Below, piece after piece: positions 3,399-34,008 of a DNA stretch of 64,000 nt; position 1 is the stretch's first letter, and every line of letters begins with the position of its first letter. Made by a program: the position numbers and the translations under genes. Source of the stretch: Mycoplana azooxidifex (GTDB taxonomy: Bacteria; Pseudomonadota; Alphaproteobacteria; Rhizobiales; Rhizobiaceae). The DNA is taken from contig NZ_JACIEE010000009.1 of the NCBI RefSeq assembly GCF_014196765.1, positions 186,001-250,000 of the forward strand. The letters run 5' to 3'. Under the pieces are notes generated by a model. That model was not told where the DNA came from, did not search any database, and worked only from the letters and a program-made list of their open reading frames with translations.

Positions 3399-4292
3399 AT
3401 GACCGATACGCTGCTCGATGCCGTTCGCCGCTACGTGGAGACTCATGCCGATCCGGCCGGGCTGGCGCAGACGCCGATCCCCGGCCTGACGACCATCCGC
3501 TCGACAGCGCCCGGCGGGCTCGTCCACGCGATCTCGAAGCCGCTCGTCTGTCTCGTTCTCCAGGGGACCAAACAGGTCTCGATGGGGGCGGAGATGTTCA
3601 CGTTCGGCGCGGGCGATTCCCTGCTGGTCACCGCGGACGTGCCGACCGTGAGCCAGATCACGCAGGCCAGCGCCGACCGGCCCTATCTCTCGCTTGTGCT
3701 GGATCTGGATCCGGCGGTCATCGCGGAACTGGCGGTGGAGATGGGGACCGTGCCTTCCGCCGACGCTGCGGCCGTGCGGCTCGAGGCGACCGACGCCGAG
3801 GTGACGGAGGCGGCCCTGCGGCTGATGCGGCTGCTCGATCGCCCGGAATCGGTACCCGTGCTGCATGCCCAGCGGGTGCGCGAGTTGCACTACTGGTTGC
3901 TGCTCGGGCGGCACGGGGCGGCCATTCGCCGCTTCGGCTGGCCGGAGGGGCATGCCCAGCGCGTCGCCCGCGCCGTCGCCGTGCTCAGGGAGCAGTATGC
4001 CCGGCCCCTGCGGGTGGACCGCCTCGCGGCGGTGGCGGGCATGAGCCCGTCGTCGTTCTACAGCCACTTCCGCGCGGTGACTTCGCTGTCACCGCTGCAG
4101 TTCCAGAAGCAGTTGCGCCTCATCGAGGCGCGGCGGCTGATGCAGGCGGAAGGCATGCCGGCAAGCGCTGCTGCCTTTGCGGTCGGCTACGAGAGCGTGT
4201 CGCAATTCACCCGCGAGTATGGCCGGATGTTCGGCCGGCCGCCGGCAAGGGACACCGAGGCGCTCAGACGCTGGGCCGTGGCCGCCGCGTGA
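3399..4292 (+). CDS. AraC-family transcriptional regulator (AraC_N type)
   Basis: 297 aa from the ATG at 3399; an in-frame ATG at 3363 would add 12 poorly coding residues, so the later start is preferred. Residues ~20-150 form the cupin-like AraC_N effector domain (LVCLVLQGTKQV, GDSLLVTADVPTVSQ). Residues ~190-290 hold the double helix-turn-helix (YARPLRVDRLAAVAGMSPSSFYSHF and ASAAAFAVGYESVSQFTREYGRMFG). Family members typically activate a divergent oxidoreductase gene, here the SDR at 2494-3249. The inducer is unknown. Confidence 0.9.
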   Translation: MTDTLLDAVRRYVETHADPAGLAQTPIPGLTTIRSTAPGGLVHAISKPLVCLVLQGTKQVSMGAEMFTFGAGDSLLVTADVPTVSQITQASADRPYLSLVLDLDPAVIAELAVEMGTVPSADAAAVRLEATDAEVTEAALRLMRLLDRPESVPVLHAQRVRELHYWLLLGRHGAAIRRFGWPEGHAQRVARAVAVLREQYARPLRVDRLAAVAGMSPSSFYSHFRAVTSLSPLQFQKQLRLIEARRLMQAEGMPASAAAFAVGYESVSQFTREYGRMFGRPPARDTEALRRWAVAAA

Positions 4293-4447
4293 TCGGCTGG
4301 GACCTTGCGCTTGACCGATTGCCTGGGCCGTCACAGGGGCCGTCAACGGCATCCTTGTGATGGCGGCAGGCGCGAAGTTGCGGTCGTGAAGCACGGGGAG
4401 GTGCCTGAGAAACCGCCTCATAGATCACCCAGAAGATCGCCGCGCGC

Positions 4448-5479
4448 TCAGTCGAAATCCGGACGGTCGCGGCCGGGGCTGTCCCTGCCCGGCGTATCCG
4501 GGCCGCCCCCGTCGCGGTCCGGCCGATCGCGGTCGGGCCTGTCGCGGCCGGGCCGGTCGCGATCGGAGGTCTCGCGTGTCGGGCGGTCCCTGTCCGGCCT
4601 GTCCCTGTCGGGCCTGTCGAAGCCCGGCCTATCCCGGTCCGGCTTGACGCGGCCGGGCGTGTCGAAATCGGGCTTGTCCCTGCCGCGCGTTTCGCGATCC
4701 GGGCGATCCCAGCTCGGCCGTTCCACTTTCCTGCGTTTCTCGGGCGGCGGCGCCGGCTCGGGTCGGCGCGGTGGCCGCTCCAGCCGCTCCTGTCGCGGCT
4801 GCATCGATGCTTCGAGGCTGCAGGCACCGTCCTGGAAGCCGCCGGCGAGTTGCTGGTGGCCGGAGAGGAAGGGAAGGGCCCGCGCGTTGCCGAGCCGCCG
4901 CAGGACGCTGCGGTCGACGCGCCGGACGTCGGTCATGCCGCCGTTCGGCGTTGCGACCACGCAATCGCAGCGCCGAACCATTTGACGGCATCCGCCGGAG
5001 CCACAGAAGGAGGCGGAGCCGTTCAGCAGCACCATCGCCGTGGTGCCGTCGGCGGCGACATAGAAATCGAATGCGGTGCCGCGCACGCCGATCGTGCCGG
5101 CCGGCGTGACGATCTCGTAGGCGGTGCTCTTCGACCGGCCGCTGACCCAGCGAAACGTGCCCTTGGCGGTATTCAGCGTCAGCTTCTTCAGCGAATTGCC
5201 ACCGTCGAAAACGAAGCGGTCGATCACCACCGAGGAGCCCCAGCCGACTGCGAGCTTGGTGCCGTCGCGAAAGACGAACTGGCCCAGGCCGGAGCGGGAG
5301 GTGCGAATGCGCTCGTCACGGTGGACGGGGTCGCGCGTCACCATTTCCTGGCCGTCGCCGGTGACGCTGGTGCGGATATGCGATGCCTGGCCGATGACTT
5401 CGGCGGCGGGTGCTGCGTGCGCGCAGCAAAGCATCGCCGATCCGGCGAGGGCGATCGCAACACGCTGCAACTTCGACAT
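4448..5479 (-). CDS. Secreted FecR-domain protein with RPD-repeat tail
   Basis: 343 aa starting at MSKLQRVAIALAG; an upstream in-frame ATG at 5497 would add six residues. Residues 1-26 are a clear Sec signal peptide (AHAAPAAE cleavage area). Residues ~30-150 are a FecR domain (DGTKLAVGWGSSVVIDRF, TPAGTIGVRGTAFDFYV), here as a stand-alone exported protein and not an anti-sigma factor with a membrane anchor. Four or five cysteines lie at ~165-220. From about residue 250 to the end the chain is almost only Arg, Pro, Asp and Gly in RPDRD-like units. The gene is convergent with the AraC gene. The FecR fold is clear; role is inferred as a periplasmic or surface structural protein. Confidence 0.8.
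   Translation of the reverse strand: MSKLQRVAIALAGSAMLCCAHAAPAAEVIGQASHIRTSVTGDGQEMVTRDPVHRDERIRTSRSGLGQFVFRDGTKLAVGWGSSVVIDRFVFDGGNSLKKLTLNTAKGTFRWVSGRSKSTAYEIVTPAGTIGVRGTAFDFYVAADGTTAMVLLNGSASFCGSGGCRQMVRRCDCVVATPNGGMTDVRRVDRSVLRRLGNARALPFLSGHQQLAGGFQDGACSLEASMQPRQERLERPPRRPEPAPPPEKRRKVERPSWDRPDRETRGRDKPDFDTPGRVKPDRDRPGFDRPDRDRPDRDRPTRETSDRDRPGRDRPDRDRPDRDGGGPDTPGRDSPGRDRPDFD
4451..4735 (-). repeat. In-gene tandem repeat coding for Arg-Pro-Asp units
   Basis: The last ~95 codons of the FecR-domain gene consist of imperfect units of 9-15 bp (read on the plus strand as variants of cggtcsggcctgtc) encoding DRPDRD/RPGRDRP-type steps. Short repeats of this sort change copy number easily, so length variation between strains is expected. 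The tail is highly charged and probably unstructured. Confidence 0.7.
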
Positions 5480-9172: not shown

Positions 9173-9248
9173 GGGCCTGTAGCTCAATGGTTAGAGCCGG
9201 CGGCTCATAACCGCTTGGTTGGGGGTTCGAGTCCCTCCGGGCCCACCA
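9173..9248 (+). tRNA. tRNA with CAT anticodon, probably tRNA-Ile2 (lysidine-modified)
   Basis: 76 nt folding as a complete cloverleaf: acceptor GGGCCTG/CGGGCCC with discriminator A and encoded CCA, D-arm AGCTC...GAGC, anticodon loop CTCATAA (anticodon CAT), and T-arm GGGGG-TTCGAGT-CCCTC. The anticodon arm and variable loop (CTCATAACCGCTTGGT) resemble the minor tRNA-Ile2 type, whose C34 is converted to lysidine, more than an elongator tRNA-Met; this assignment is an inference. Its last 16 bases are repeated at 33054-33069, making it the attachment site of the prophage. The integrated element regenerates an intact 3' end. Confidence 0.93.
9233..9248 (+). other. attL core (tRNA 3' end)
   Basis: CCCTCCGGGCCCACCA, identical to 33054-33069; flanking bases differ on both sides, so the core is exactly 16 bp. 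Lies in the T-arm/acceptor of the tRNA, the usual target of tyrosine recombinases. Confidence 0.85.
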
Positions 9249-9279: not shown

Positions 9280-9313
9280 GGTTAGCCAGCCGGGTTAGCC
9301 AAACGGTTAGCCA
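9280..9313. repeat. Three direct GGTTAGCCA repeats beside attL (integrase arm sites)
   Basis: GGTTAGCCA occurs at 9280-9288, 9293-9301 and 9305-9313, spaced about one helical turn apart; the third overlaps the int stop codon. The inverse, TGGCTAACC, occurs near the right end at 33007-33015. The regular spacing next to the core site fits arm-type binding sites of the integrase. Confidence 0.6.
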
Positions 9314-10401
9314 CGCGGTTTTTTAGGCTGCAGGCCGCGAGTGAGTCGGGTCATGGCGTCCCTCGCAAGTCGCTGCTGTTCGGCCTCACGGCTGTACAGC
9401 TCGGCGTGCTCGATATTATCGTGACCGAGCGTCTCCATCAGCTGGCGGGTGGTCGAGCCGGTTTCGGCCAGCATCTTGCCAAGAGACTTGCGCAGGCCGT
9501 GCATCGTGCAGCCTTTCGGCATCTCGGCGCTCTTGGTCCAGTCGGCCATGCGACCTGTCAGCGACTTCTCGGAGAAGGGCTCGCCATAGGCGGTCATCAA
9601 CACGAATTCGCCCTTGCGCTCCAGCGGCTGGACGATGTCGCGCAGCATCGGCGTCAGCGGCAGGACGAGCGTCTTGCCACCCTTCTTCTGCTCGATCGTC
9701 ACCGTTCCCTTGCGGAAATCGAACCAGCTCCATTTGACGCGCGCCACATCGGAGCGGCGGTTGCCGAGCCACAGCGCGAGGCCATAGGCGGTGCGCGGCG
9801 TGGTGCCGGGTGGCCAGCGCGCCTCGAACTTCGCGCGTTCATCGTCTGTCCATGCGCGCCAGCCCTTGTATTCCGGCCGGTAGCTCAGCTTCCAGGTCGG
9901 GTCGGTTTCAATCCACTCCTCGTCGAGCGCGGCGTAGATCATCTTCCGGATGGCGACCAGCAGGTGCTTTGCCTTGTGAGGGGTGGCGGCGAAGCGAGCC
10001 AGGATGTCCTTGATGTGGCGGCGCTTGAGATCGCGCACCAGCATGTCGCCCCAGACGGCCGGATGATCGGCGACCAGGCGAAGCTTCAGGAACTCTTCGG
10101 CAAGGCGGGTGTTCTTTGCCTTCGTCGCTTCGTCGTGGCGCAGCCATTCCGGCGATGCGAGTACCTTCTTCCATGCGGCCTTGAACGACCCCGGCAGGGC
10201 GGAAGACGGGTGTGCTAGCACCTTGGCTGGGACATGCTTCCGACCTTCAACGGCCGCCGTGTAGGCGGCTTGGAACTCCGGTTCACCCGGCGTGCCGGGG
10301 AGGGACACCGTCTTGCCAGCGCGACGATAGCGCCAGCGACGACGACCGTGCCGGTCCAGGAATGACGAGAGGTAGGGGCGGGGCTCTTCCGGATCAAGCA
10401 T
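9307..10401 (-). CDS. Phage tyrosine-recombinase integrase
   Basis: 364 aa. Residues ~70-165 are the SAM-like core-binding domain, and the catalytic domain follows. Catalytic residues visible: Arg in GNRRSD (215/216), Lys around 240-243, His301 and Arg304 (HGLRKS), His327 (LGHDN) and Tyr336 (ELYSREAEQ). Full length, no frameshift. It sits immediately inside attL, as expected for the enzyme that inserted the element into the tRNA. It is the last gene of the leftward operon, 18 bp after the excisionase-like gene. Confidence 0.92.
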   Translation of the reverse strand: MLDPEEPRPYLSSFLDRHGRRRWRYRRAGKTVSLPGTPGEPEFQAAYTAAVEGRKHVPAKVLAHPSSALPGSFKAAWKKVLASPEWLRHDEATKAKNTRLAEEFLKLRLVADHPAVWGDMLVRDLKRRHIKDILARFAATPHKAKHLLVAIRKMIYAALDEEWIETDPTWKLSYRPEYKGWRAWTDDERAKFEARWPPGTTPRTAYGLALWLGNRRSDVARVKWSWFDFRKGTVTIEQKKGGKTLVLPLTPMLRDIVQPLERKGEFVLMTAYGEPFSEKSLTGRMADWTKSAEMPKGCTMHGLRKSLGKMLAETGSTTRQLMETLGHDNIEHAELYSREAEQQRLARDAMTRLTRGLQPKKPRG

Positions 10402-25582: not shown

Positions 25583-25662
25583 CTCGGCCCCTTTTACCCA
25601 CTGACCATTTGTCACAACGCGCCCGAAATTTAAAGCCAAACCATCTTCAAAAGGACATCACT

Positions 25663-26325
25663 ATGAACACGACCGTGCAGGATCTGCAGCGGCGCTTGAC
25701 CGCGCTTGGCTATAACCCTGGTCCGGCCGATGGCATCGCCGGGGCAAAGACCAAGGCCGCCGTCAGGATCTTCCAGATTGCGGAAGGCTTGGCGGTCGAT
25801 GGCATCGCTGGTCCCAAGACATGGGAGCGCCTGCGAGCCAAGGCCGCGCCGGCCGTGATCCCCGCCGGAGTGATGGCAACCAGCCCGGCCGGCCGCAAGG
25901 CTATCACCGCTCACGAGGACAATGTCCTGACGGCATATCCGGACCCGGCGACGGGCGGGGAGCCTTGGACGATCGGCGTCGGCCATACGAGTGCCGCTGG
26001 CCCCCCGAAGGTCGTCAAGGGCATGAGGATCACCGCGGCGGAAAGCGATGAAATCCTGTCGCGCGACCTCAAGACATTCGAGGCCGGCGTTCGCTCCGCC
26101 GTAAAGGTGCCGCTGAACCAGAACGAGTTCGACGCGCTCGTCTCGCTGGCCCTCAACATCGGCGTCGGCGCGTTCTCGAAATCCACGCTCGTCAAGAAGC
26201 TGAATGCCGGTGATCGGCCGGGCGCGGCCGATCAGTTCGGCGTGTGGGTTAAGGCGGCCGGCAAGACAATGCCGGGCCTCGTCAAGCGCCGTGCATCCGA
26301 ACGTACTCTTTTCCTCAAGCCCTGA
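25663..26325 (+). CDS. Endolysin: PG-binding domain plus GH24 lysozyme
   Basis: 220 aa from ATG 25663 with aaaagga upstream. Residues ~4-60: peptidoglycan-binding type 1 fold with the repeated signature GPADGIAGAKTKAAVRIFQ/AVDGIAGPKTWERL. Residues ~75-220: phage GH24 (T4-type) lysozyme; catalytic Glu85 (HEDN), Asp94 (YPDP) and Thr109 (GVGHT) are all in place. No signal peptide, so export to the wall needs a holin. Cleaves the glycan chain. Complete gene, next to the holin-like gene. Confidence 0.92.
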   Translation: MNTTVQDLQRRLTALGYNPGPADGIAGAKTKAAVRIFQIAEGLAVDGIAGPKTWERLRAKAAPAVIPAGVMATSPAGRKAITAHEDNVLTAYPDPATGGEPWTIGVGHTSAAGPPKVVKGMRITAAESDEILSRDLKTFEAGVRSAVKVPLNQNEFDALVSLALNIGVGAFSKSTLVKKLNAGDRPGAADQFGVWVKAAGKTMPGLVKRRASERTLFLKP

Positions 26326-27195: not shown

Positions 27196-27348
27196 AACGG
27201 CTCGGCCGCGCCAATGGGGGACCGCGGCGGCGGCTTGCGGTTGACCTCATATTGGCGAGACGATAGATCTCGCCAAAATCCACCGCTCGGCGTTTTCTTT
27301 CGGGGTGGTCCGGGTCACAGTGTATCGGAAGTAGTCGTAGTGGCGGTC

Positions 27349-28446
27349 ATGAGGGACTCCAAGAATGTCGAGCCGGTCGGAGCGCCGGACACCCAGCCGA
27401 AAGCATCGCCGTACATGCGTCTTCCCGACCGCCAGTTCTGGTCGAAGGCGGTGCAGCCGGCCGATTTCAAGTCGGTGGAGAACATCTATACGAAGAAGTT
27501 CTCGATCGAAGGCTTGGACACTGCCACCGCCGGAAGCTGTTTCGCCCAGCATGTGGCGAAGAACCTGAAGCTGAACGGCTATACGGTTCTCGACCTCGAG
27601 CCGGGCCTGCCCTCCGTCGCCGGCATGGTGGCAAAGCGGTTCGGCTATGACACCTATTCCGCGCGCTACGGCAATATCTATACCACAAGGCGCCTTCGCC
27701 AGCTTGCGGAGGAGGCGGCGGGCCTGATGAAGCCGGATGCCGACGATCTCGTCTGGAGCCGGGCGAACCGCTACTGGGACGCTCTGCGACCCAGCGTCGA
27801 GCCGAAGGGGCTCGCTTCACCTCAAGAGGTGCTCCTGCAGCGCGCGGACCACGTTTCGCGTGTCCGGCGGCTCCTGGAAAGGGCCAAGCTCTTCGTCTTC
27901 ACGTTCGGGCTTACGGAAGCCTGGATGAGCAGGCGCTCCGGTCTCGTCTATGCGCAGGCGCCCGGCACGCCGATCGAAGGGCGCTTGGTCGGTTCCTATG
28001 ACGAGAGCGCGCATGCCTTCGTGAACTTCCGCGTCCAGGACGTCTACGACGATTTTGTCGCGTTTCGGAAGATTGCGCACAGCTTCAACCCGGAGATGAA
28101 GTTCCTGGTGACCGTCTCTCCGGTGCCGCTTGCCGTGTCCGCGGTCGATACGCATGTGCTCGCGGCCACTGTTCGATCCAAGGCTGTCCTTCGTGCCGCC
28201 GCTGCGCAGCTCTACGAGGATTTTGCCGACGTCGACTATTTCCCCTCCTTCGAACTGCTGAGCACGCCATTTCTCGGAGCGGCGCGTTTCGAGGAGGACA
28301 AGCGCGAGGTTCAGCCGAGGGCCGTCGCCATGGTCATGCGGCACTTCTTTAGCGAGCATCCGCCGCTGGACGGCAAGCGTCTGCGCACCGCGTCGCAAGA
28401 GGATGTTGTTTGCGAGGAAGCACTCCTGAAGGCGTTTTCGAAATAA
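27349..28446 (+). CDS. GSCFA-domain protein (SGNH-like)
   Basis: 365 aa from the ATG at 27349; the frame is open upstream to 27214 but that part is not protein-like. The diagnostic TAGSCFAQH motif lies at residues ~62-70, with FTFGLTEAWMS (~190-200), KFLVTVSPVPLAVSA (~255) and the final HFFSEHPP block. GSCFA enzymes are SGNH-hydrolase relatives thought to act on acyl groups of polysaccharides; here the prophage copy pairs with the next gene. No signal peptide. Likely a lysogenic conversion gene, with the substrate inferred only by family. Confidence 0.82.
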   Translation: MRDSKNVEPVGAPDTQPKASPYMRLPDRQFWSKAVQPADFKSVENIYTKKFSIEGLDTATAGSCFAQHVAKNLKLNGYTVLDLEPGLPSVAGMVAKRFGYDTYSARYGNIYTTRRLRQLAEEAAGLMKPDADDLVWSRANRYWDALRPSVEPKGLASPQEVLLQRADHVSRVRRLLERAKLFVFTFGLTEAWMSRRSGLVYAQAPGTPIEGRLVGSYDESAHAFVNFRVQDVYDDFVAFRKIAHSFNPEMKFLVTVSPVPLAVSAVDTHVLAATVRSKAVLRAAAAQLYEDFADVDYFPSFELLSTPFLGAARFEEDKREVQPRAVAMVMRHFFSEHPPLDGKRLRTASQEDVVCEEALLKAFSK

Positions 28447-29552: not shown

Positions 29553-29861
29553 ATGTCGCGGAAAGCAGTGAGCCAGTTCATCATAGTCCCGCCTACGAGA
29601 CGGGTGGAAGAATTTATCGGCGCCCAGGACCGCTTCTCAGTATACCTTTCGGACCACTTCCCCGGCTATGAATTCCGTATCGCGGGAAACTCCCCGTTCA
29701 GGAGCGACGACTTTCAGGTGGTTCCGATCATGGGAGGCGAGAGCAAACAGTCGAATCCGGATGGCGGGTTCGAGATGCGGATCCCGCCCGAGCGCGTTGT
29801 CCTCGAAGAAATAGTACAGGTCTGCCGCAGCTTCGACGTTTCGAAGAGCCGATTATCGTAG
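29553..29861 (+). CDS. Hypothetical protein, 102 aa
   Basis: Starts MSRKAVSQFIIVPPTRRVEEFIGAQDRFSVYLSDHFPGYEFRIAG, preceded by ggggagaag 5-8 bases upstream. Compact alpha/beta composition with one cysteine; the region FSVYLSDHFPGYEF...FQVVPIMGGES looks like a globular small domain. Not recognised. The 238-bp stretch before it (29315-29552) holds only the hairpin and the gene's own leader. Confidence 0.5.
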   Translation: MSRKAVSQFIIVPPTRRVEEFIGAQDRFSVYLSDHFPGYEFRIAGNSPFRSDDFQVVPIMGGESKQSNPDGGFEMRIPPERVVLEEIVQVCRSFDVSKSRLS

Positions 29862-30478: not shown

Positions 30479-30715
30479 CTACGCAGCCAGCTCACCGATC
30501 TCGCCGAACTGCACTAGCAGTCTGGGACTGCTCATGTCGCCGCTTTCCATATCGACCTGAACTGCGTACGCGGCGACACCGATGTGACGCGGCGCCATTG
30601 CTGCGGCCACCTTCTCGGCGCCGGCGGCCGTTGACGCGGCGCGCATCTCGCCGGGCGCTAGGCCTCCGCGAACGCGCCTGAACGGAAGGACGATATATTT
30701 CTCAGCCATTGCCAT
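30479..30715 (-). CDS. SOS-controlled 78-aa prophage protein, copy 1
   Basis: MAMAEKYIVLPFRRVRGGLAPGEMRAASTAAGAEK...; ATG with gaggtg upstream. 72 of 78 residues identical to the gene at 32492-32728. Basic N-terminus, a helix with Ala-rich APGEMRAAS...AEKVAAAM, then a beta part (IGVAAYAVQVDMESGDMSSPRLLVQFGEI). Not recognised. Its promoter (30740-30768) is overlapped by a LexA-type box, so it should be induced by DNA damage. Candidate roles: anti-repressor or induction switch; inference only. Confidence 0.7.
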   Translation of the reverse strand: MAMAEKYIVLPFRRVRGGLAPGEMRAASTAAGAEKVAAAMAPRHIGVAAYAVQVDMESGDMSSPRLLVQFGEIGELAA

Positions 30716-30733
30716 CGGATCACCTCTTCATTT

Positions 30734-30768
30734 GTTCTATAAATGTTCTCGTTGTCGAGGTATGTCAA
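30734..30768 (-). promoter_or_regulatory. Promoter with LexA box, 78-aa gene copy 1
   Basis: Minus strand: -35 TTGACA (30763-30768), 17-bp spacer, -10 CATTTA (30740-30745). GTTC-N7-GTTC at 30734-30748 covers the -10, the textbook position for a LexA operator in alphaproteobacteria. ATG is 18 bp downstream of the box. Confidence 0.75.
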
Positions 30769-30966
30769 TGGCCGGCCAATCGCAGCGTTTGTGGGACGCC
30801 GAAGAAAAATAGCATAGGGATATCAATGCCAGATTTTCTGCCCCACAAATGCGCAAGCCATTGGGATTGAAGCCTTTGCGGAGAACTCTTCTGTCTCGAA
30901 CGCCGCAATCACATATAACGAAGAAGGCTTTCCCTCACCGCTTCGTCGCCAGCTCCGAACTATGTA

Positions 30967-31527
30967 TCAGCTGTCTGCGGGGTCGGTGATCGAAGCCAGT
31001 CGGTAAACAATCTGAGCAGAAGCTATGACGAGAAGAATCGAATACACCAGAAAAAAGTGCCCTATAAAAGACCCAGTCGCAGCTAGGTAGAAAAACGCAG
31101 CCTCAGGATACTCGAAGTATGGAGAAGTTATCTCCATGAGATCCACCAGCCATCTTCCACTATAGAGAACACCCCACACCAGACAAATCACCTGAACCAT
31201 GATAAAATGAAAAAAAGTGGCATTAATTTCATCAAGATAGCTTATATTTCGACTATTCTTTACCAGCTTCAGCGCGCGCTTCAAACGCCCCGTCATAAGA
31301 CTGAAAAGCAACGCATACGTTCCCAGACTAAACCCCAAAAGGCTTGGCACAAGTGACTGGCTCAAAGGAAGCCAGTCGGGGCTTATCCAATGACTGTAGC
31401 TTATCGCGGTAATGATAATGGAGAGGAGGAATAGCGGTGATGACACCGTGTCCGCCCAACCACCATAGGCATGGAAGTAGCGTTGCAGTGAGCGCTTGAA
31501 GGCAATGAGTTGACTTTTAGCGGACAC
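30967..31527 (-). CDS. Four-helix membrane protein of two-gene cassette
   Basis: 186 aa from a GTG that shares its first base with the upstream TAG (TAGTG), so it is translated with the DUF4747-like gene. Four membrane segments at about 29-47, 57-80, 105-128 and 142-172; N- and C-termini polar. Between helices 2 and 3 a basic loop (MTGRLKRALKLVKNSRN). Clearly AT-richer than the prophage around it. No family recognised; the layout (soluble partner plus small multi-spanning protein) is that of membrane-targeting abortive infection or superinfection-exclusion effectors. That role is a hypothesis. Confidence 0.65.
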   Translation of the reverse strand: MSAKSQLIAFKRSLQRYFHAYGGWADTVSSPLFLLSIIITAISYSHWISPDWLPLSQSLVPSLLGFSLGTYALLFSLMTGRLKRALKLVKNSRNISYLDEINATFFHFIMVQVICLVWGVLYSGRWLVDLMEITSPYFEYPEAAFFYLAATGSFIGHFFLVYSILLVIASAQIVYRLASITDPADS

Positions 31528-32393
31528 TAGTTTCCGTCTGCCCCCTCTGTAACTAGACGTGTGAACGCCTGACTCTCAGTCGTTAGGTCTGGATCATATC
31601 TATCCTGCAAGACGCGCGGAATTTCGCTGGTAGACATTCGGACGCTAGCACCATCATTTCGGCCTGCGACTTCGACGTCGCCATTCTCCAGTGCAGCGTC
31701 GCTCAACGTATTGATATCGGGAGTTGGCACCAACGACTCGCCAGGCTCTGCGTGGTATGTAATGGAGAGTTTCTTAGCGTGCGACTCCGCTAGATGTGCT
31801 TCAATTTGCGCCTCGAAGTCGTCTGATAAAATGTCCGCGTTTGGCTTCATTATTGTAATGGTAATACGATCAATCCTGTCCAATTTGAATAGCTTTTTAA
31901 GCCCATCCTTACTCTGTACCAATGTGATATTTGCGTAATTATATTTCTCAGTCATTTCTATTGACTGCGCCAAAGAATTAAAGAACAGCAACCCCTGAGA
32001 AGGCGTTAGAACCTTACCTCTTGAGTAGTTTTGGACATAAATTTTATGCCGATTGATGTCAAAGTGAAACAAAAATTGGGCTGAATTCGGGTGCAGGTTT
32101 TCTGGAATGCTAACTTGTGATACCTGCGTGTCCGTAGCCTCAGAAAGTTTTTCTGTATCAAACCAATCACCGTCAATCTCCACAACGACGAATGTTGTTA
32201 TGGTCCCAGTGATTATGCCGCGATCCGCTCTACTTCTATCAAGGAAAGAAATAATACCGTGCCGATCGCCGTGCAGGCGAATGATCCTCTTCAGATCATA
32301 AGCATCCTTGATGAACGAACTGTAGATTTCAGGGCTGTGTGGATGCAGCCTGATGTTGAGAATAGAAGACGATATCTTAATTTTGCGCGCCAT
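31527..32393 (-). CDS. DUF4747-like soluble protein of two-gene cassette
   Basis: 288 aa from MARKIKISSSILNIRLHPHSPEIYSSF; gaggggaaa lies just upstream, better than the start at 32417. The opening ...ILNIRLHPHSPEIY, the ITTFVVVEIDGDWFD strand and the phrase RITITIMKPNAD resemble DUF4747 proteins as I remember them. The C-terminal ~70 residues are acidic/Ser/Thr-rich and probably flexible. Low GC and atypical codons versus neighbours point to separate acquisition. First gene of the pair; likely sensor or regulator of the membrane protein. Function unknown. Confidence 0.6.
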   Translation of the reverse strand: MARKIKISSSILNIRLHPHSPEIYSSFIKDAYDLKRIIRLHGDRHGIISFLDRSRADRGIITGTITTFVVVEIDGDWFDTEKLSEATDTQVSQVSIPENLHPNSAQFLFHFDINRHKIYVQNYSRGKVLTPSQGLLFFNSLAQSIEMTEKYNYANITLVQSKDGLKKLFKLDRIDRITITIMKPNADILSDDFEAQIEAHLAESHAKKLSITYHAEPGESLVPTPDINTLSDAALENGDVEVAGRNDGASVRMSTSEIPRVLQDRYDPDLTTESQAFTRLVTEGADGN

Positions 32394-32491
32394 TTTCCCC
32401 TCACCGGCGAGTTTCACGCGCTGTTATAACGGGTTGCGTGAGTTTGGGAAGCCCCACCACAGGTGGTTGGATGGCGCAGGGAAGTGTCGAC

Positions 32492-32728
32492 TTATGCAGT
32501 CAGGTCTCCAATTTCACCGAACTGAGCTAGAAGTCGGGGGCTACTCATGTTGCCGCTTTCCATGTCTACCTGGACCGCATAGGCGGCTACGCCGATGTGG
32601 CGGGGCGCCATGGCGGAGGCCACCTTCTCGGCGCCAGCAGCGGTTGATGCAGCACGCATTTCCCCGGGCGCTAGACCGCCTCGAACGCGCTTAAAGGGAA
32701 GGACGATATATTTCTCAGCCATTGCCAT
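32492..32728 (-). CDS. SOS-controlled 78-aa prophage protein, copy 2
   Basis: Paralogue of 30479-30715 with six substitutions (R13K, A38S, D60N, V68A, E75D, A77T) and many synonymous changes, so both copies have been kept under protein-level selection since duplication. Same start, same Shine-Dalgarno (aaggtg) and same LexA-overlapped promoter. Lies between the AT-rich cassette and the right att. Confidence 0.7.
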   Translation of the reverse strand: MAMAEKYIVLPFKRVRGGLAPGEMRAASTAAGAEKVASAMAPRHIGVAAYAVQVDMESGNMSSPRLLAQFGEIGDLTA

Positions 32729-32745
32729 CGGAGCACCTTTTCGAT

Positions 32746-32780
32746 GTTCTATAAATGTTCTCTCTAGCGGGCGAAGTCAA
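32746..32780 (-). promoter_or_regulatory. Promoter with LexA box, 78-aa gene copy 2
   Basis: Minus strand: -35 TTGACT (32775-32780), 17-bp spacer, -10 CATTTA (32752-32757), with GTTC-N7-GTTC at 32746-32760 over the -10. Same design as copy 1. Confidence 0.75.
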
Positions 32781-33053
32781 CTGGAGATTTAGTTGCGGCT
32801 CACCTGGCTGGACACTTTTGAAAAAAGCGTAGCAATTCCGTGGCAACTACAAATGTCCATAACGCGTACATGTAATTGATATTATTTATTTTAAATGGGA
32901 TTGGAGCCTTTGCGGAGAATTCTTCTGTCTCGAACCTTTGCGCTGCGGTCCGCGGCTGACCGATCGAGACGGTTGGCAAACATCGGGAACAGAGGGGAAA
33001 CTCTGCTGGCTAACCGTCCGGTTATCCATTTGTTTTTGCGATGTATTATGCGG

Positions 33054-33069
33054 CCCTCCGGGCCCACCA
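33054..33069 (+). other. attR core
   Basis: CCCTCCGGGCCCACCA, identical to the tRNA 3' end at 9233-9248. No tRNA precedes it; only the core is duplicated. Confidence 0.85.
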
Positions 33070-33145: not shown

Positions 33146-33445
33146 CTACTTTTCACTATCTCGAATCCTTCGAATTTGCGCCACTCTTCGTGCCGCCGCG
33201 TCCGCAGCTCGTACAGCCATGGGCGTCGCGTCTAGCTTCTTGAGATAGATCTGAGTTGTTCGAAAATTCCTGTGGCCCAACGCTTTCTGGACGGCGAAGG
33301 GATCGGCGCCGCCCTCGGCAATTTTATTGGCGAAGGTCGACCTCAGTCCATGCAGGGTGTAACCGGGTGGGATACCGGCTTGCTCGCACCAAACGGCCAT
33401 ATGGTTCGTCAGGCTCTTCTGGGAGAACGGCTTGCCGTAAAGGTT
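33146..33445 (-). pseudogene. Tyrosine integrase, C-terminal remnant
   Basis: About 100 codons from GKPFSQKSLTNHMAVWCEQAG to the end, with HGLRSTFANKIAEGG (His, Arg), LGHRNFRTTQIYLKK (His, Tyr) intact. The N-terminal two thirds are missing; upstream the frame runs into sequence antisense/out of frame to the cytochrome gene. It is distinct from the prophage integrase (different spacing and residues). Its 3' end faces attR at 77 bp, as expected for an earlier element that used the same tRNA site. Confidence 0.8.
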
Positions 33446-33528
33446 GTCGAGCCACCAATAGGCAAGGCAGGCGACAATCAATCCGACTTCGATGAAATCA
33501 AGGATCAGGCGGACGCGGAAGATGCCGT

Positions 33529-34008
33529 TCATTCGAATTCGAACCGCCGCATGTCGTTGAATGTGTACAGGAAGTCCCTGTCGGACCGCGACGTATGGCA
33601 CCGCTGGCAACGGGCCGTGTTCTCGTCCATGTTGATGGTGCCGTCCGGCTTGAACCATTGAAACTGCCAGTCTTCGGTGCGGCGGTTCTCGTCGTAATCC
33701 TGTCCCCAGCCTTCGCCCTTCTCCATGATGAAGTAGCGGAAGACCTTGCCCTCGCGGTAGTCAACCAGTGCGACATGGGTGCCATTCGGGATCGGCTCGC
33801 CGCGTTTGACGGCCTCGATCGCCTCGCGCGTGGTCATGATATGCTCAGTCACCTCGCCACGCTCGACGGTGGTGTAGTGGACGAGCTTGTCAATGTCCGG
33901 CATGGTTGCCCGGGTTGGTTCGGCGTGGACCTGCACGCCAACGAGGATCACGGCGCTCGCCACGAAGGCGGCTGCTCCGATCGTGTGGATGATCCTATTC
34001 ATCCGCAT
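33529..34008 (-). CDS. Cytochrome P460 family protein
   Basis: 159 aa with a signal peptide (residues 1-29, ends VQVHAEP) and a c-type haem motif CQRCH at 134-138 near the C-terminus, the position typical of cytochrome P460/c'-beta. Other P460 features: [27 protein letters not shown] and FQWFKPDGT. Known members oxidise hydroxylamine or bind NO. Here it lies at the 3' end of a cluster of exported enzymes, overlapping the cupin gene by 14 bp, so part of one leftward operon. A second start two codons later is possible. Confidence 0.88.

Follow-up and report, generated by a model that had tools for sequence, protein, structure and literature searches.

A DUF4747 gene and its membrane partner in a Mycoplana azooxidifex prophage: a candidate RexAB-type abortive-infection pair behind a LexA-boxed gene

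Here we describe a two-gene locus in a prophage of the alphaproteobacterium Mycoplana azooxidifex (RefSeq assembly GCF_014196765.1, contig NZ_JACIEE010000009.1, positions 186,001 to 250,000; this entire analysed stretch of 64,000 nucleotides is referred to as the window, and coordinates are counted from its first letter). The locus consists of gene A, which encodes a DUF4747 protein, and gene B, which encodes a membrane protein; the two share one base in the sequence TAGTG (gap of -1) and lie between two diverged copies of a segment carrying a 78-residue gene and a LexA box (Table 1). Composition sets the pair apart, as its guanine-plus-cytosine (GC) content is 0.463 compared with a mean of 0.624 (standard deviation 0.043) for 1,252 pair-length sliding windows across the 64 kb; only two of these are at or below the value of the pair, and both overlap it, making it the most AT-rich stretch of the window. 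GC at third codon positions (GC3) agrees, being 0.50-0.52 in the pair versus 0.58-0.88 in 24 of the 25 other open reading frames (ORFs) called in the prophage, the remaining one, a doubtful ORF of 70 residues, having 0.50 (neighbouring genes were called with greedy ORF scripts, and false ORFs may be among them). A preliminary description of this DNA, made without database searches, had placed both ORFs and their overlap here, had called them AT-richer than their surroundings, and had recognized gene A as DUF4747-like, gene B as a protein with four membrane helices, and the surrounding element as a prophage, all of which agrees with the results given below.

Gene A is a full member of the Pfam family DUF4747 (PF15931), scoring 136.3 bits against a gathering cut-off of 27 (E = 1.7e-39; profile positions 1-250 of 257), and also matches phrog_10040 (E = 7e-93); its start at the residues MARK agrees with the alignments. 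The best Protein Data Bank (PDB) match of an AlphaFold model built from nine sequences (predicted local distance difference test score, pLDDT, 81.9) was Escherichia coli RdgC (2owl; E = 1.8e-4), the sole one below 0.001 among the matches listed. Next came two weak matches (E = 0.025 and 0.035) to chain L of the human constitutive centromere-associated network (CCAN) complex, which we take from the chain naming to be CENP-L, presumably the counterpart of IML3. The model also matched phage proteins, annotated RdgC among them. As modelled, gene A resembles RdgC, and its fold would be of the RdgC type; a search of PDB sequences using the profile of gene A returned one match, at chance level.

Gene B matched phrog_20580 (E = 2.9e-20) and had no Pfam match. 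Its model, built from eight sequences (pLDDT 83.8), is helical throughout, with long helices at residues 31-48 (broken), 52-77, 97-123, and 141-178. A hydropathy scan likewise yielded four segments, the two sets not being identical: the scan missed the first model helix and split the last one. A central loop rich in lysine and arginine (residues 78-96) is probably cytoplasmic. Across 54 aligned rows, not all of them independent, Q112, P61, and G65 are present in every row and H107 in 50; Q112 and H107 both lie inside helix 97-123, and if the model is right, such conserved polar residues would be fitting for a pore or a gate.

Genes A and B are one unit. Among 297 family genomes, DUF4747 turned up in six, and these were also the six with gene B; the two genes are adjacent in the window and in each of the other five. 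In a further draw of 394 genomes, some of them shared with the first, eight had gene A, and a class-wide draw of 385 genomes contained one besides the genome of the window; G719 and G760, whose sequences upstream of gene A repeat those of loci L095 (with a LexA-type box) and L073 (without one), respectively, were left out as new relatives. Relatives include Altericroceibacterium and Niveispirillum, in keeping, like the LexA box type, with an alphaproteobacterial genome. Gene A also occurs in three plasmid records, each time followed by a gene of fitting size, and the pair is present on two small Acinetobacter plasmids (L020 and L021) and on a Niveispirillum replicon. On the two Acinetobacter plasmids, the DUF4747 gene and its partner adjoin RelE/ParE or BrnT/BrnA toxin-antitoxin genes.

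When the IMG/VR database was scanned with gene B alone, 50 contigs were recovered, 47 of which carry gene A directly upstream, although the query was derived from partners of gene A and may favour A-linked relatives; a further scan with alignment A6 gave no additional contigs. One of the three loci with gene B and no gene A (L100) begins at a contig end, and the other two (L103 and L104) are near-identical; compared with L102, gene A has been deleted in them and gene B is still open (about positions 3829-4531), as expected if gene B is harmless without its trigger. Altogether, 66 loci yielded 51 distinct A-B pairs, window included, after removal of ten copies (identical across a 140-residue stretch of gene A), the three loci without gene A, and two rows of one contig that cuts off gene B. 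The 25 most frequent families among 120 pooled neighbours of the IMG/VR pair loci include head protease, NinG, integrase, repressor, endolysin, and Psu, assorted phage company as expected of a mobile accessory. Co-occurrence in other genomes, proposed as a check in the preliminary description, was found, and as far as tested neither gene has housekeeping homology and the cassette does not share the composition of the prophage.

The prophage spans 23.8 kb between an exact repeat of a tRNA-Met 3' end, with the pair near its right end, 0.7 to 2.1 kb from the right attachment site (attR). The region enclosed by the attachment sites encodes an integrase and, for the tail, tube, tape measure, and baseplate hub and wedge proteins. 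Also inside are accessory genes, a lysozyme gene (25609-26325) more than 4 kb from the pair, and the pair itself between its flanking copies. A GSCFA-family gene is found among the accessory genes at 27214-28446. No capsid, portal, or terminase appeared among the 10 PHROG-scanned and other scanned prophage and window proteins, which cover part of the ORFs, and the element may be defective or tail-only, resembling a tailocin. An IMG/VR prophage (IMGVR_UViG_2829954201_000002, locus L139) matches the window without a difference across the 5,234 compared bases, and since it stops at 30715, the pair falls outside that prophage prediction. A second, partial integrase ORF (33146-33658) lies beyond attR; its Pfam match is confined to the C-terminal portion of the family model, and an earlier integration at this tRNA may have left it behind.

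Table 1. Features of the gene pair, its flanking copies, and the prophage ends (window coordinates).
Feature	Position	Strand	Basis
Gene A, DUF4747 protein, 288 residues, predicted soluble sensor	31527..32393	-	Pfam PF15931, phrog_10040, model
Gene B, membrane protein, 186 residues, four predicted helices, predicted effector	30967..31527	-	phrog_20580, hydropathy, model
78-residue SOS gene, copy 2, co-oriented with gene A and 98 bp upstream of it	32492..32728	-	ORF
LexA box GAACATTTATAGAAC of copy 2, 367 bp upstream of the gene A start	32746..32760	-	exact box
40-bp block, copy 2	32896..32935	.	repeat family D4
78-residue SOS gene, copy 1, downstream of gene B	30479..30715	-	ORF
LexA box of copy 1	30734..30748	-	exact box
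40-bp block, copy 1	30862..30901	.	repeat family D4
attL, 3' end of tRNA-Met gene (9173-9248, ARAGORN)	9233..9248	+	16-bp exact direct repeat
attR, repeat of tRNA-Met 3' end	33054..33069	+	16-bp exact direct repeat
Prophage tyrosine integrase beside attL	9307..10401	-	phrog_1 integrase, E = 2.7e-34

The preliminary description knew of no described system with such a pair; this has to be corrected, as RexAB of phage lambda, Sbash gp30/gp31, CarolAnn gp44/gp43, and RexABpp of Pseudomonas putida are all soluble-plus-membrane pairs. Lambda RexAB (PF15969, PF15968) is, like the pair, prophage-borne and has a soluble gene ahead of a four-helix membrane gene, RexB having 144 residues versus 186 in gene B, and the reported structural relatives of lambda RexA, RdgC and the kinetochore proteins IML3/CHL4 (PMC11077077), are of the kind found for gene A. 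The Sbash and CarolAnn pairs, for which prophage defence is reported as shown, agree with ours in gene order and architecture, and the CarolAnn genes overlap as genes A and B do. The soluble members of CarolAnn and Sbash are reported as DUF4747-like on weak HHpred matches, and the DUF4747 match of Butters has an E-value of 140, whereas gene A is a full family member. Substitutions in the central cytoplasmic loop of Sbash gp31 are reported to inactivate it (PMC6426596); loop 78-96 of gene B would correspond. RexABpp (PP_5643-5644), which we liken to the pair by its description, is a prophage pair of a DNA-binding protein with the RexA fold and a four-helix membrane protein that, once triggered, harms the membrane (PMC12894663); that paper does not use the term DUF4747. 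The same source counts five described RexAB-like systems, states that RexABpp, CarolAnn, Sbash, and lambda need both genes, with the membrane protein as the effector, and describes the activation of lambda RexAB as still unknown. PMC13373217 names a 'DUF4747/CarolAnn prophage system' as an immune operon, known or predicted, that stands behind capK-capS in 17 of the 443 capK loci and is controlled by DNA damage.

Taken together, the pair is probably an abortive-infection module of the RexAB type that the prophage, integrated at tRNA-Met, carries as an accessory. We read it as belonging to the 'DUF4747/CarolAnn' kind already named in the literature, its possible SOS wiring being the new aspect. 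That it works like RexAB is supported by its architecture, its fold relatives, and its prophage setting, while homology of the pair to RexAB is left open by the sequence comparisons. The suggestion in the preliminary description of an anti-phage or exclusion pair is likewise well supported by the strict pairing, the prophage distribution, the RdgC-type fold as modelled, the membrane partner, and the published name. Gene A, with its modelled RdgC-type fold, would take the role of RexA; it probably dimerises, and may sense nucleic acid or nucleoprotein characteristic of an infecting phage. Once triggered, it would turn on gene B in the role of RexB, which, by analogy with characterised RexAB pairs, would permeabilise or depolarise the membrane, so that the infected cell would halt and the phage would fail. 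With the pair directly behind a co-oriented, LexA-boxed 78-residue gene, part of its transcription may rise upon DNA damage.

Several results weigh against a RexAB-type module. Template-modelling scores of the gene A model to RdgC are low (0.32-0.34 for 2owl_A), and RexA (8twq), which is present in the PDB sequence set, is absent among the best 50 of the 246 Foldseek matches of the model, so that the link from gene A to RexA runs through common relatives and is not direct. In hhalign comparisons against single-sequence targets, which constitute a weak test, gene A (53 rows) against RexA and CarolAnn gp44 and gene B (54 rows) against RexB and CarolAnn gp43 scored like reversed sequences, and smaller profiles, run without a reversed control against RexA, RexB, gp44, and gp43, gave probabilities of about 0.1. 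The lambda RexA relatives in IMG/VR were too alike to give a richer RexA profile (99-100% identity in 10 of 11 loci). The viral match of gene B to a Sbash protein, taken as gp31 by its 165 residues, ranked sixth with E = 1.1 and is not significant. Hydropathy predicts four segments in 20 of 51 B proteins, three in 22, two in eight, and one in one, and the helix number of gene B therefore rests mainly on the model. Unlike lambda, with cI, or CarolAnn, the pair has no adjoining repressor gene, in which it agrees with Sbash and Butters. Neither gene matched a PADLOC model, and a tblastn search of an isolate-phage collection found no relative of either one.

The roles of the two proteins could also be reversed, as in Butters, with gene A as the antiviral agent and membrane gene B keeping it inactive until infection. 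Butters gp30 alone is reported to inhibit two phages and gp31 to attenuate gp30 (PMC7542560), and the retention of gene B after the loss of gene A in L103 and L104 is compatible with a harmless partner; set against this are the need for both genes and the effector role of the membrane protein in the four pairs named above, together with polar positions in a predicted membrane helix of gene B that are conserved beyond the needs of a mere anchor, and we regard such a reversal as unlikely. Scarcely different in its improbability is a lysogeny-switch or DNA-damage module, in which the pair would tune induction or halt a damaged host and exclusion would be a side effect: lambda RexA is reported to be capable of biasing the bistable switch without RexB (PMC11077077), and LexA boxes lie upstream of the pair or its leading gene, but the pair also resides on the two small Acinetobacter plasmids and the Niveispirillum replicon, and prophage pair loci adjoin varied phage genes, not repressors only. 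A holin-like or toxin-antitoxin pair without a defence role, which a small membrane protein tightly coupled to a soluble one and found on plasmids next to toxin-antitoxin genes might suggest, is very improbable given the 288 residues and modelled RdgC-type fold of gene A, features that usual antitoxins are not known to have, and given the distance of the pair from the lysozyme gene and the varied places of its relatives.

The flanking copies raise a further alternative: the pair could be a mobile cassette that was inserted, or has been retained, by recombination between the repeats, as the preliminary description had proposed. In its favour are the position of the pair, exactly between the copies, its deviating GC content, and a 59-bp repeat of 81% identity that flanks the pair at one other locus (L015). 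The copies and their 78-residue gene are real, but they do not form one gap-free repeat over the segment of about 430 bp that had been described: identity is 83% over 250 bp, 78% over a 36-bp stretch with the LexA box, and 95% over the 40-bp block, and the offset between copies shifts from 2,012-2,013 to 2,034 between box and block. Of the 42 differences within the gene copies, 36 fall at third codon positions. The 78-residue gene is found in 41 of the 297 family genomes, only two of which also have the pair (G000, and G113 by a weak match to the 78-residue gene). It is absent from all 50 distinct pair loci other than the window, and in 49 of these no repeat flanks the pair within 1.5 kb (threshold E 1e-4); counting the window, 38 of the 51 loci extend for 1 kb or more on either side. 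Three stretches of a same-genus genome (G054) match the repeat region only at the 78-residue gene, apart from a few short matches elsewhere, and showed no empty site, other genomes not being searched for one. Given the mostly silent differences, the spread through the family, the retained boxes, and the other pair loci lacking the gene, the copies are best regarded as conserved SOS genes and not as insertion scars; insertion or retention through the repeats was rejected, and of the explanations considered it is the one to which we give least credence.

A third copy of gene, box, and block, 84% identical, lies on another contig of this genome (G000:C8:317924; L013 8924-9336), where it adjoins what we take to be a DNA-ligase-like fragment and a histidine-kinase-like gene, with a presumed integrase-like gene about 4 kb away. 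Separately, 134 bp (29673-29806) of a small window gene (29553-29861) match L013 6821-6949 at 78%, a second element common to both regions.

That the copies are SOS-controlled, as the preliminary description had it, is supported for the 78-residue gene. The box GAACATTTATAGAAC stands 32 or 33 bases upstream of the gene in each copy (32 in copy 2), and an exact GAAC-N7-GAAC box lies 25-44 bases upstream in 28 of 33 homologue rows, one of which duplicates a window copy, down to 46% identity. GTTC-N7-GTTC is reported as the LexA box type of Alphaproteobacteria (PMC8565304), and likewise for Caulobacter (PMC9578287). The same box type occurs 62 bases upstream of lexA in this genome, and no exact box was found in the recA locus examined. 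The 78-residue gene upstream of the pair had no Pfam and no PADLOC match in general scans, which did not include a search with capK or capS profiles.

The closest relatives of the pair suggest a link to SOS control. An exact LexA-type box lies no more than 300 bp upstream of gene A in five of the 12 closest distinct relatives (alignment A6 minus the window; 45-64% identical), compared with a mean of 0.08 and a maximum of 2 in 300 shuffle trials and 0.27 predicted from the box density of the same loci; hosts of the IMG/VR contigs are not given, and part of the 12 are classed as alphaproteobacterial by inference. Outside this set, L018 and L019 are more distant and have no box, and L072 was not scored. 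Four of the boxes (L015, L016, L017, and L095) lie at -108 to -138 with AT-rich spacers, and the fifth (L068, at -237) is less convincing; the four represent about three lineages, because L016 shares its genus with G719, which repeats L095. Over all 51 distinct pairs, seven have an exact box upstream of gene A and none a gamma-type SOS box. In the window itself, the 98-bp gap between the 78-residue gene and gene A holds no terminator-like site. The boxes in close relatives are suggestive of SOS control of the pair; in the window such control could act only through the 78-residue gene, and gene A could have its own promoter.

The 78-residue gene may also say something about the place that the pair occupies. 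It follows an S24-type repressor in five of six IMG/VR loci tested (L140-L144, not L145), and the next large gene downstream of it matches a PADLOC model in four of seven contigs scanned singly (L141-L145, L147, and L148); these are the ones with an S24 repressor among the seven, and the next gene in L145, L147, and L148 had no PADLOC match. The models matched are SIR2/ThsA-like, OLD/PtuA-like, Ppl-like, and TIR-NLR, the middle two being broad ATPase models. Of the other contigs, L146 and L149 were scanned in a pool only, L140 has no downstream sequence, and L139 is the prophage of the window, in which the pair fills the place behind copy 2. Among cellular copies, one of nine neighbours tested singly had weak matches, none of three further ones had any, and the frequent neighbour families are housekeeping. 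These few cases are suggestive of a gene that marks a defence spot, less so outside prophages. It is possible, though we hold it only tentatively, that the alphaproteobacterial DUF4747/membrane pair is a member of the LexA regulon and that the 78-residue SOS gene marks a spot for defence genes in prophages.

For the biology of these elements, the full-length DUF4747 family, with its strict pairing in dozens of viral contigs and an RdgC-like model, offers many tractable RexAB-like cases. CapKS-type operons are placed under DNA-damage control through capK-capS, whereas in the window and some relatives LexA itself would make the connection; no title or abstract opening found in searches of open-licence literature describes such a pair as LexA-controlled. 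If the LexA boxes act, DNA damage would have another way, in addition to CapKS, of arming such immunity, and the operon would be predicted to be induced by mitomycin C in a recA+ host and not where LexA is uncleavable. If this is true, DNA damage caused by an invading or induced phage would raise a RexAB-type suicide system, either through a direct box or through the preceding SOS gene.

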